Shown here piece by piece: positions 19,596-37,281 of a DNA stretch of 63,320 nucleotides. Origin of the DNA: a virus. The stretch spans positions 1-63,320 of IMG/VR virus record IMGVR_UViG_3300023178_000048. One strand, written 5' to 3'. Every line of letters starts with the position of its first letter. Positions within the stretch are counted from its first letter, which is position 1. The translations under genes and the position numbers were made by a program. Under the pieces are notes generated by a model that saw only the letters and a program-made list of their open reading frames with translations, was not told the origin of the DNA and did not search any database.

Positions 19596-19709
19596 TTGAT
19601 ACCAGTTATTTTTCCTCGCGCGTGCGTGTCAGCGTGCCTGACGGACTATTTAATGTGTCAGACCCCTCAGACAGTTGACAATGCTCCCCCATATCCGGTA
19701 ATACATAAT
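19596..19709 (+). repeat. Intergenic leader repeat, copy B
   Basis: TTGATACCAGTTATTTTTCC (from 19596), alternating CG stretch, palindrome GTCAG-CGTGC-CTGAC (19628-19642), a second box GTCAGACCCCTCAGAC (19657-19672), TTGACA (19675-19680) and GGTAATACATAAT (to 19709). Same architecture as copies A and C. Confidence 0.85.
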
Positions 19710-19738
19710 GAGCGGATGCGCGGTGTATCCGTTTTTTT
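19675..19738 (+). promoter_or_regulatory. Early promoter-like element 3 with leader terminator (attenuator)
   Basis: TTGACA (19675-19680), 23 bases, CATAAT (19704-19709). Directly after it, CGGATGC-GCGGT-GTATCCG (19713-19731, one G-U pair) and seven T (19732-19738) form a good intrinsic terminator, yet the ribosome site GGAG and the ATG at 19750 follow within 12 bases. The terminator therefore lies inside the leader of paralogue 2 and would need read-through or antitermination for expression. Confidence 0.6.
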
Positions 19739-19749
19739 GGAGAATGACA

Positions 19750-20325
19750 ATGGATAGTTTGAAAACACTTGGTTATCAGTTTGCCCAGTCTGAAGAAGCA
19801 ACCCAAGAAATAGCGCGCAAAGTGCTAGAGCGTTGCCCTGATTTTGTCAACGTGGTTGCAACTGACAATGACAAGTTTGCAGAGTTGGATGAGGGCTTCG
19901 CTCTACGCTTCCAAGAATTGCGTGAGCCTGTGGGTTACTCTAATGACTGGACACCCATAAAGGGCAAAGGCAAGCCCGCATTAATTGCAACGCTTGCGTG
20001 GGCTATGTCATATAGTCCCCAGCAACTGAACTCACTTAGAGCAACTGAGCCTGTTATGGTTGACATAGCCCGTGCGTTGCATAGGCAATGGGGGCAATAC
20101 AAGTCTGCCCGGCGCAATGCTCTACTGAGGGCAGTGCGTAAGTGTGTGGAGCCTGAGAAAAAAGAAAAAGCAAAACCCGTTGACTTTACTGACTACGTTG
20201 ACAATGTGTTTAGTGACTTAAAAACCCGATGCAAAAACGCTAAGCGTTTGCGCCATGATGATACGGCAGACTTAGACAAGTTTAACAATGCCGTATCTGC
20301 CTTTATGTCAATCTGGAAAGCCTAA
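19750..20325 (+). CDS. Early paralogue 2, 191 aa, unknown function
   Basis: I start at MDSLKTLGYQFAQ, because GGAG sits 7 bases before this ATG; upstream in-frame codons lie in the leader terminator. It shares with paralogue 1 the blocks REPVGYSNDWTP, KPALIATLAWAMSYSPQQLN and VDFTDYVDNVFSDLKTRCK, and DDTADLDKFNNAVSAF at the end. Identity is moderate, so the duplication is old. Function unknown. Confidence 0.8.
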   Translation: MDSLKTLGYQFAQSEEATQEIARKVLERCPDFVNVVATDNDKFAELDEGFALRFQELREPVGYSNDWTPIKGKGKPALIATLAWAMSYSPQQLNSLRATEPVMVDIARALHRQWGQYKSARRNALLRAVRKCVEPEKKEKAKPVDFTDYVDNVFSDLKTRCKNAKRLRHDDTADLDKFNNAVSAFMSIWKA

Positions 20326-20334
20326 GTTGACTAT

Positions 20335-20368
20335 GCCCCAGCGCCAAGTTGGTGCTGGGGCTTTTTTT
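20335..20368 (+). terminator. Terminator of early unit 3
   Basis: GCCCCAGCGCC ... GGTGCTGGGGC with a short loop, followed by seven T (20362-20368). Strong rho-independent terminator just after paralogue 2. Confidence 0.95.
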
Positions 20369-35029: not shown

Positions 35030-35031
35030 AC

Positions 35032-35229
35032 ATGCAGGTTTCAGGTTTAATCGACTACGCAAAACCAATGATGGATGCAGAACAAGCGTTGAAAAATATG
35101 CATCAAGCGGCGCTACATAAAGACTTTGAGATCGCTAAAGAGTTTGCGCTTGAGGCTATGAGCTATACAAAGCTGGCTATGCATTCCATCACAATCATGG
35201 AAGAAGACAAAAATGGCTTACGTCAATAA
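35032..35229 (+). CDS. Helical small protein, 65 aa
   Basis: Start at ATG 35032 right after the nuclease. MQVSGLIDYAKPMMDAEQAL ... LEAMSYTKLAMHSITIMEED. All-helical; its end overlaps the next gene by 17 bases. Unknown function. Confidence 0.6.
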   Translation: MQVSGLIDYAKPMMDAEQALKNMHQAALHKDFEIAKEFALEAMSYTKLAMHSITIMEEDKNGLRQ

Positions 35230-35533
35230 AAAACGCCCTTACAAGAAAGAGTATCAGCAACAAAAAGCGCGTGGCGAACACGCTAACCGTATGGAGCGTC
35301 AACGCCTCCGGCGAAAAGTCGATAGCGAAGGTCGAGATGCTAACGGTAACGGTAAAGCCGATGCGCGTGAGGGCAGAGACTTATCGCATAACAAAGCGCT
35401 AGGCAAGGGTGGTTCAAACGCCGATGGTTACAAGATTAAGTCCGCCAGTGCGAATCGTTCGTTTCGCCGTGACTCAAATGGTAAGTTGGTGTCTGAAACA
35501 AGCAAGCGAGAAAAAAAGCGAAAAAAAGCTTGA
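35213..35533 (+). CDS. Basic HNH-like small protein, 106 aa
   Basis: Very basic. GRDLSHNKALGKGGSNADGY and SASANRSFRRDS resemble the D-x-x-H-x-x-P-L-x-K-G-G-x-N block of small HNH endonucleases followed by the ANR.. helix. The catalytic His-Asn spacing is only partly preserved, so nuclease activity is doubtful; it may be a DNA-binding protein. The stop overlaps the promoter box TTGACA (35530). Confidence 0.6.
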   Translation: MAYVNKKRPYKKEYQQQKARGEHANRMERQRLRRKVDSEGRDANGNGKADAREGRDLSHNKALGKGGSNADGYKIKSASANRSFRRDSNGKLVSETSKREKKRKKA

Positions 35534-35697
35534 CAAACTAGAAAATCGCCCCTACATTAGGGGCTGCGACTGTAAGGCATGAGTGGGTCGCACAGGTTTG
35601 TATATCTACCTGATCAACCATGTCAGCCGAGCGGGGCTCAAACGTTTTCTTGTCGTCTCCGGCTCGACAGGCTCGGCACAAACAGTTTTGAGGTAGT
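35530..35697 (+). promoter_or_regulatory. Promoter with palindromic -10 region and structured leader of the helicase gene
   Basis: TTGACA (35530-35535), 17 bases, TACATT (35553-35558). The -10 sits in a palindrome GCCCCTA-CAT-TAGGGGC, so a dimeric repressor site or hairpin is plausible. The remaining 140-bp leader contains further inverted pairs (TGCGAC with GTCGCA, GCCGAGC with GCTCGGC) and no gene. It looks like a folded 5' leader of the helicase mRNA; I do not recognise a known riboswitch. Confidence 0.55.
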
Positions 35698-37281
35698 ATG
35701 GAAGTAGTTTTAGATAGTGCGATTAAGTTTAAGGCTCCGGTTGAACACGCCGAGCATATAACTCGCGCCATTGATAAAAGCGAGATTCTGAACGTAGCGT
35801 CAGGCGTTGCTGACGTCCTAGTTAACTGGGAACTAGACGAGATGAAAACACTCGCTAGATACGTTCCGCACGACATAAAAATTCCATCCCCCATAGTAAG
35901 AGAGTACGACTGGCCCGGCTTGTTCAAGCCATTCCAGCATCAAATAGAGACCGCTGAGTTTCTGTCCTTACGACAACGAGCATTCTGCTTCAACGAAGCC
36001 GGTACTGGTAAAACGTCAGCCGCTATTTGGGCGGCGGACTACTTAATGAAAAAAGGGCTGGTACATCGCGTCTTAGTTGTGTGTCCGCTGTCCATCATGT
36101 ACTCAGCGTGGCAAGCCGATCTATTCAAAACAGTCATGCATAGGCGTAGCGCTGTGGCTTACGGATCGGCGTCTAGGCGCAAGAACATAATTGAAAGCAC
36201 CCCGCATTACGAGTTTATCGTAACTAACTATGACGGCGTGGGCGTCATGCACAAAGAAATCAAAGAGGGCGGCTTTGACTTAATCATCGTTGACGAAGCT
36301 AACGCTTATAAGAATGTATCGACAGTTCGCTGGAAGAAACTATCAAAGATAATTGACGCGACTACATACGTTTGGATGATGACCGGCACACCGGCATCGC
36401 AGTCGCCTATGGATGCTTTTGGTCTGGCTAAGATAATCAACCCCAACGGCATAACCCGCACTGCTACGGCTTGGCGCGATAGAGTGATGTATCAGGTAAC
36501 TAGATTTAAGTGGTTACCCAAAGCAGAATCAAAACAGACGGTATTTGACGCGCTACAACCAGCCATCAGATTTAATAAGAACGAGTGCCTAGACTTGCCT
36601 GACGTCATGTACCAAACTAGGGAAGTACCGCTGACGCCACAAGCCTTGTCTTTCTATAAGAAACTCAAAAACGATATGATGATTAAGGCGGCGGGCGAAG
36701 AAGTTAGCGCAGTCAATGCCGCCGCCGCTTTGAATAAGTTACTTCAGTTGTCGGGTGGCGCAATCTACACGGACAACCAAGAAGTGCTTGAGTTTGACAT
36801 AGGCCCCCGCAAGCAGGCGCTTAAAGAGGTTCTAGAAGAGACCGAGCACAAAGTCATTGTGTTCGTGCCGTACCGTCACACGATTGAGTTAGTAAGTAAC
36901 TTTCTGCGCTCAGAAGGCTATACTGTCGAAATCATATCAGGCGATGTTACTGCTAGAGAGCGCGGCGAAATATTCAACCGCTTTCAAACAACGAACAATC
37001 CGCACGTGTTGGTGATTCAGCCGCAAGCGGCGTCGCATGGCGTAACCCTAACCGCAGCCAATACGGTTGTGTTTTGGTCGCCGGTAATGTCAGTCGAGAC
37101 TTATATGCAGTGCGTCGCGCGTATTGATAGGGTAGGTCAAAAGAACAAGATGACTGTTGTTCATCTTCAAGGGTCGGAGGTAGAACGTCGTGTATTTAAT
37201 ATGTTGATGGATAAAAAAGAATTACACGAGGGCTTAGTTGATCTTTATAAACAGGAAATGGAAGGAGAAAATAATGGTTGA
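35698..37281 (+). CDS. SNF2-type helicase/ATPase, 527 aa
   Basis: Walker A NEAGTGKTS (K105), motif II VDEAN (D199-E200), motif III WMMTGTP, and the C-terminal half with QPQAASHGVTLTAANTVVFW and motif VI QCVARIDRVGQK (about 478). Short phage form of the SNF2/Rad54 superfamily 2 translocases, probably remodelling DNA-protein complexes or replication forks. A palindrome copy lies at 35799, about 100 bases into the gene. Confidence 0.9.
   Translation: MEVVLDSAIKFKAPVEHAEHITRAIDKSEILNVASGVADVLVNWELDEMKTLARYVPHDIKIPSPIVREYDWPGLFKPFQHQIETAEFLSLRQRAFCFNEAGTGKTSAAIWAADYLMKKGLVHRVLVVCPLSIMYSAWQADLFKTVMHRRSAVAYGSASRRKNIIESTPHYEFIVTNYDGVGVMHKEIKEGGFDLIIVDEANAYKNVSTVRWKKLSKIIDATTYVWMMTGTPASQSPMDAFGLAKIINPNGITRTATAWRDRVMYQVTRFKWLPKAESKQTVFDALQPAIRFNKNECLDLPDVMYQTREVPLTPQALSFYKKLKNDMMIKAAGEEVSAVNAAAALNKLLQLSGGAIYTDNQEVLEFDIGPRKQALKEVLEETEHKVIVFVPYRHTIELVSNFLRSEGYTVEIISGDVTARERGEIFNRFQTTNNPHVLVIQPQAASHGVTLTAANTVVFWSPVMSVETYMQCVARIDRVGQKNKMTVVHLQGSEVERRVFNMLMDKKELHEGLVDLYKQEMEGENNG

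Follow-up and report, generated by a model that had tools for sequence, protein, structure and literature searches.

The early arm of this phage carries a dispersed array of palindromes, GTCAG-N6-CTGAC, which we read, with a probability of about 0.6 and on the strength of comparative sequence analysis, as operators of a phage-encoded and probably dimeric protein, p18, that would regulate its own genes and silence the early arm. The window analysed is the full 63,320-nt stretch of IMG/VR record IMGVR_UViG_3300023178_000048. The initial annotation had listed 13 exact copies and proposed a count against shuffled controls. All 13 were recovered at the starts given there, as compared to 0.07 expected from dinucleotide shuffles of the 63,320 bp (largest count in any shuffle, 1). 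De novo enumeration of spaced palindromes in the window placed this word first, the best unrelated palindrome occurring three times. Allowing up to one mismatch yields 21 sites versus 1.45 expected. Eighteen of them, including five one-mismatch copies, form a single block from 18806 to 37534; the other three (8626, 47024 and 58624) fall outside the block and are at background level. The two N5 variants already described, at 19628 and 20413, each lie 29 bp ahead of an N6 copy, and the array comprises about 18-20 copies in the early block. Exact copies are absent from the leftward arms of the window, as had been claimed; the range originally assigned (19628-35814) correctly placed the motif in the early arm but was too narrow.

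A chance origin, codon bias or a coding repeat is refuted as the source of the array. The intragenic copies do prefer one reading frame, and one of the two other frames gives a stop codon; against such an origin stand the shuffle counts, the copies located in leaders, and the relatives (see below) in which the same array is built from other words at matching places.

Within the block lies the first early gene pair, both members of which belong to the p18 family: gene 18909..19547 (plus strand, 212 aa; T126, K130, A134) and its paralogue 19708..20325 (plus strand, 205 aa as listed; R126, Q130, A134). The true start of the latter is probably ATG 19744 or 19750, both located 3′ of the promoter. 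A predicted one-mismatch operator precedes each promoter, GTCAGACCCCCCGGAC at 18806..18821 and GTCAGACCCCTCAGAC at 19657..19672, each placed 2 bp ahead of a TTGACA hexamer (at 18824 and 19675, respectively). The same arrangement, with the site ending about 2 bp 5′ of the -35 box, is found in many relatives, and a conserved box, TTGATACCAGTTATTTGTCCTCG, precedes the p18 promoter sites. The N5 variant GTCAGCGTGCCTGAC (19628..19642) accompanies the second operator; the other N5 variant, GTCAGTCTGGCTGAC (20413..20427), is followed by the exact site at 20442..20457, which falls in a third p18 promoter-like module. The p18 coding sequence itself is nearly free of sites (one in 42,183 bp, whereas other early genes carry 0.3-1.3 sites per kb).

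Farther downstream, exact sites lie shortly ahead of start codons at 20989..21004 (27 bp 5′ of ATG 21032), 21685..21700 (20 bp 5′ of ATG 21721), 22321..22336 (20 bp 5′ of ATG 22357) and 24334..24349 (17 bp 5′ of ATG 24367, AAA ATPase). The sites at 20989 and 22321 are positioned in leaders, 3′ of sigma70-like promoters, and so are many of those preceding the 303-aa gene (homologue of 23420) in relatives. A site occurs within 120 bp upstream of 42 of 63 such genes, in 24 cases at 20-30 bp before the start. In many loci (e.g., L034, L045 and L047) these leaders also show a recurring GGGA(A/G) element between promoter and site, which in some of them is part of a possible hairpin.

The remaining copies are intragenic. 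Exact sites occur in gene 23420 (GTCAGACTACCCTGAC, 23833..23848), twice in the VWA protein gene 25481 (25648..25663 and 26008..26023), close to the 5′ end of gene 26710 (26733..26748), in the VRR-NUC-like gene 27977 (28159..28174), in gene 31970 (32101..32116), in the DNA polymerase gene 32380 (33587..33602) and in the helicase gene 35698 (35799..35814). One-mismatch sites are found in genes 23110 (23197..23212), 34370 (34747..34762) and 37238 (37519..37534). The gene at 26710-27708, which follows the VWA gene, is unlike the 340-aa gene of many relatives and is an apparent replacement of it.

About 80 relatives were collected through the VWA protein and the neighbouring AAA ATPase, and spaced palindromes were enumerated at each locus. 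Most relatives carry a dispersed palindrome of their own, usually with the 5-N6-5 geometry but with different arms: CTCAG, TTCAG, TCCAC, CCCAC, CCCAG, TTCAC, TTCAA, TCCGT, TTCGA, ATCGG and others. The initial annotation had suggested searching related phages for the motif itself; at matching places, dozens of the relatives have another word. Three loci depart from the usual geometry, with CCTGACA-N3-TGTCAGG (L006 and L107) or TCTGAC-N3-GTCAGA (L007). The sites of complete or near-complete relatives are likewise confined to an early block, except in the cultured Rhizobium phage RHph_TM3_14A, whose 21 exact copies of TTACC-N6-GGTAA and six N5 forms are spread more widely over the genome. Enumeration gave no clear array in short loci and in a few longer ones, and none of this kind was seen in Pseudomonas phages KPP25 and Rollin, which are relatives by DNA polymerase (Rollin covered in part only).

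Comparison of the motif classes indicates that sites change in place: the arms swap symmetrically from class to class while intragenic sites often hold their codon position. For instance, the site at 23833 shares its codon position with CTCAGACTACCCTGAG in L029 and TTCATCCTACCCTGAA in L030. In the VWA gene, 37 of 66 pairs of classes have sites at a common alignment column (1.3 at random), and in the AAA gene 10 of 36 (0.6 at random); since each class was represented by its locus richest in sites and ancestry common to loci was ignored, these figures measure shared position and do not count independent events. Column 230 of the VWA alignment alone harbors sites of eight classes, and two more classes lie one column off.

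Symmetric arm changes of this type resemble compensatory base changes, and many sites lie directly ahead of a ribosome binding site, as would suit RNA hairpins in leaders and messages that are bound by a protein or act on translation or decay. There is also a slight excess of changes that keep a G-U pair (p 0.026, relatedness not corrected for). The alternative, already raised in the initial annotation, nonetheless appears improbable and is disfavoured by the behaviour of position 5, whose two sides vary independently within genomes: 223 combinations are Watson-Crick pairs versus 220.5 expected, and the others include many G-G, C-A and C-C. Moreover, the flanks do not pair, the stem stays at 5 bp, and the sites of the p18 promoters, being upstream of the -35 box, are not part of that transcript. 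Chance-level pairing at position 5 and the location of the p18 sites both favour a DNA site. With five-base arms separated by N6, the half-sites would be 11 bp, or one helical turn, apart. The dimeric protein site and stoperator logic put forward at the outset is supported by the geometry, the independent variation of half-sites and the residue-base covariation described below; the HTH proteins proposed as its binders are not.

Three such proteins had been named. Gene 29641 lacks a homologue in two or more of the relatives that were compared, and in several relatives with palindromes the product of gene 31970 is missing the N-terminal HTH portion; both were set aside as binders on these grounds. 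The most plausible HTH binder would be the XRE-like product of gene 38556 (38556-38858, directly 5′ of the DUF927 gene), p18 then merely co-travelling with the motif. This small HTH protein occurs in all 12 of the IMG/VR genomes compared, and the spacing of the half-sites is compatible with an HTH dimer. We give this possibility little credence and dropped 38556 as a candidate, as its recognition helix is identical in genomes G008 and G018 (94% identity over the whole protein), whose motifs differ.

The same two genomes draw attention to p18. They are 97% identical in the AAA and helicase proteins and 98% in terminase, and their p18 proteins are only 30-32% identical. This and the following sequence comparisons make the first early gene pair (18909/19708), absent from the initial list of binders, the likely best candidate. 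Three p18 residues track three half-site positions: residue 130 tracks position 2, residue 134 position 4 and residue 126 position 1. At position 2, K130 goes with T in 20 of 20 cases and T, D or N130 with C in 39 of 39; at position 4, N134 is paired with A (48/48) and D, K or Q134 with G (7/7). Held-out loci obeyed the pattern in 9 of 10 cases for residue 130, 12 of 12 for residue 134 and 10 of 10 for residue 126, the scores for positions 1 and 4 being raised by one dominant base each. The single miss was an Asn130 paired with A. When only held-out loci less than 70% identical to the first set are considered, the figures are 3/4, 6/6 and 4/4 (residues 130, 134 and 126). In the predicted p18 structure (pLDDT 91.5), the three residues are spaced four residues, or one turn, apart on a single long helix. 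Asn-A, Lys-G and Asp/Glu-C are familiar side-chain/base preferences in protein-DNA recognition, and the p18 residue-base pairs fit the known preferences.

Three switches at position 2 and three at position 4 are seen on the species tree, and the paired p18 residues were concordant in most or all switches and opposite in none; three switches per position are too few to reach significance by themselves. Part of the position-2 signal reflects shared ancestry, since the conserved AAA, VWA and 303-aa proteins score similarly high for this position and the T/C split lies partly deep in the tree. We therefore do not take the residue-130 association as stand-alone proof, and the case for p18 rests on the independent pairs, the near-isogenic contrasts, the geometry and the held-out loci. 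Overall p18 similarity is 6.5 points higher between pairs of loci with the same motif, an association that DUF3310 shows in similar form. Profile searches did not detect p18 in the palindrome-bearing genomes G001, G014 and G017 or in fragment L006, where another first early gene, encoding 222-259 aa, occupies its place; profile comparison of this divergent group with p18 gave no secure link, and the model of the L107 first-gene product was poor. Searches of PDB and BFVD with the p18 structure returned no match, nor did domain and fold searches match p18 to any known DNA-binding family.

From these data we infer that p18, supplied here by two paralogues, binds the palindromes directly, probably as a dimer. 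The predicted helix of 36 residues (115-150) would occupy the major groove, where half-site positions 1, 2 and 4 would be read by residues 126, 130 and 134, respectively. Bound next to the -35 box, p18 would control its own promoters; on leader and intragenic sites it would act as a roadblock to RNA polymerase, damping or shutting off the early arm. If the regulator blocks elongation at its sites, its own gene would have to be free of them, which may account for the near-absence of sites from p18. Specificity would shift jointly in the protein and its sites, the latter being rewritten where they stand. An autoregulated, stoperator-like silencer of early genes in virulent phages is the best reading of the array, although activation from the site adjoining the -35 box is equally compatible with the data, and intragenic sites may possibly play a structural role. 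Lysogeny is unlikely, since neither a tyrosine integrase nor a serine recombinase (PF00589, PF00239) was matched in 12 genomes (records that may be incomplete) and no prophage or relative was found in 84,980 bacterial species genomes.

These DNA sites might instead serve the same protein in organising, replicating, segregating or packaging the genome, much as parS sites serve ParB or as dispersed centromere sites do. Many sites are indeed intragenic and far from promoters, and in several genomes the sites are spaced with some regularity; furthermore, the authors who described the dyad repeats of cluster O mycobacteriophages concluded that those sites cannot act mainly on transcription initiation (PMC4351075). 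We hold a role outside transcription to be unlikely, considering that sites adjoin the -35 boxes of the p18 promoters, cluster 20-30 bp 5′ of the start of the 303-aa gene, and are restricted to the early transcribed block, avoiding the p18 genes within it.

Several known systems resemble the p18 array as interpreted here. Operators of the 434/lambda type have half-sites about one helical turn apart and mediate autoregulation by an HTH protein from a few clustered sites. The half-site spacing and the proposed autoregulation are alike in the present case; the dispersed array and a protein with no detected HTH are not. The stoperators of cluster A mycobacteriophages, which are temperate, are asymmetric, oriented 13-bp sites; the bound repressor, monomeric and with two domains, halts transcription elongation, and the motif varies by subcluster together with the repressor (PMC6550527, PMC9283540). 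They share with our array the many dispersed sites, often near gene boundaries, and a motif that shifts with its (here candidate) binder; in contrast, the sites described here are symmetric palindromes, no integrase was found, and no HTH candidate is left. In cluster K mycobacteriophages, the asymmetric start-associated sequence (SAS) adjoins the start codon, and the associated ESAS is a 17-bp imperfect repeat pair with a variable spacer, whose inverted-repeat consensus varies among subclusters (PMC3203893). Here, too, repeats occur ahead of start codons in the non-structural half and the consensus differs among relatives, but the link to start codons holds for many leader sites and not for intragenic ones deep in genes.

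The closest precedent in kind is provided by cluster O phages such as Corndog, in which a 17-bp dyad, TGTTCGG-N3-CCGAACA, of unknown function is present in more than 30 copies genome-wide, one-third of them intragenic; these phages have no integrase and are not known to form lysogens, and a dimeric binder was predicted (PMC4351075). Both arrays place many dyad copies between and inside genes, with no integrase found and a predicted dimeric binder, and CCTGACA-N3-TGTCAGG of L006 and L107 has the same 7-3-7 geometry. Unlike the cluster O dyad, the window site is 5-N6-5 and confined to about 18-20 copies in the early block, and the family as a whole presents many specificities and a candidate binder, none having been named for cluster O. 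The initial remark that no described phage system with this site was known holds for the exact site, which we did not find in the papers searched, but not for the type of array, given the comparable one of cluster O. A limited literature search returned no description of the arrays of this phage family.

For dispersed dyad repeats of the cluster O type, found in phages with no known temperate lifestyle, neither a binder nor a function has been known so far. In the present family, many natural specificities are built on a single fixed geometry, and the family comes with a candidate protein without known fold and, in p18, a testable residue-to-base code. It further illustrates how specificity can shift jointly in a regulator and in a dozen or more unlinked sites, many of them intragenic, a long-standing problem in regulatory evolution; that the word tracks a few p18 residues suggests an evolving lock-and-key gene switch. 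To our minds the odds are about even that p18 represents a new class of DNA-binding protein in virulent phages, with a long recognition helix, a partly readable residue-base code and about 15 dispersed operators repeatedly re-keyed in place, the coding sequence bending to keep them.

The p18 promoter region is part of a module present three times in the window (18719-18832, 19572-19683 and 20357-20468). Each copy consists of a terminator-like T run, a TTGATACCAGTTATTT box, a GC-rich stretch, an N5 site (missing from one copy) and then an N6 site; exact matches to the TTGATACCAGTTATTT box occur in 18 IMG/VR stretches. No p18 gene follows the third copy. The adjacent stretch, 20480-20880, is apparently non-coding and contains repeated GTTCC/GGAAC words as well as a 29-nt inverted repeat (20572-20600 / 20687-20715); possibly, it represents an origin or the remains of a lost gene.
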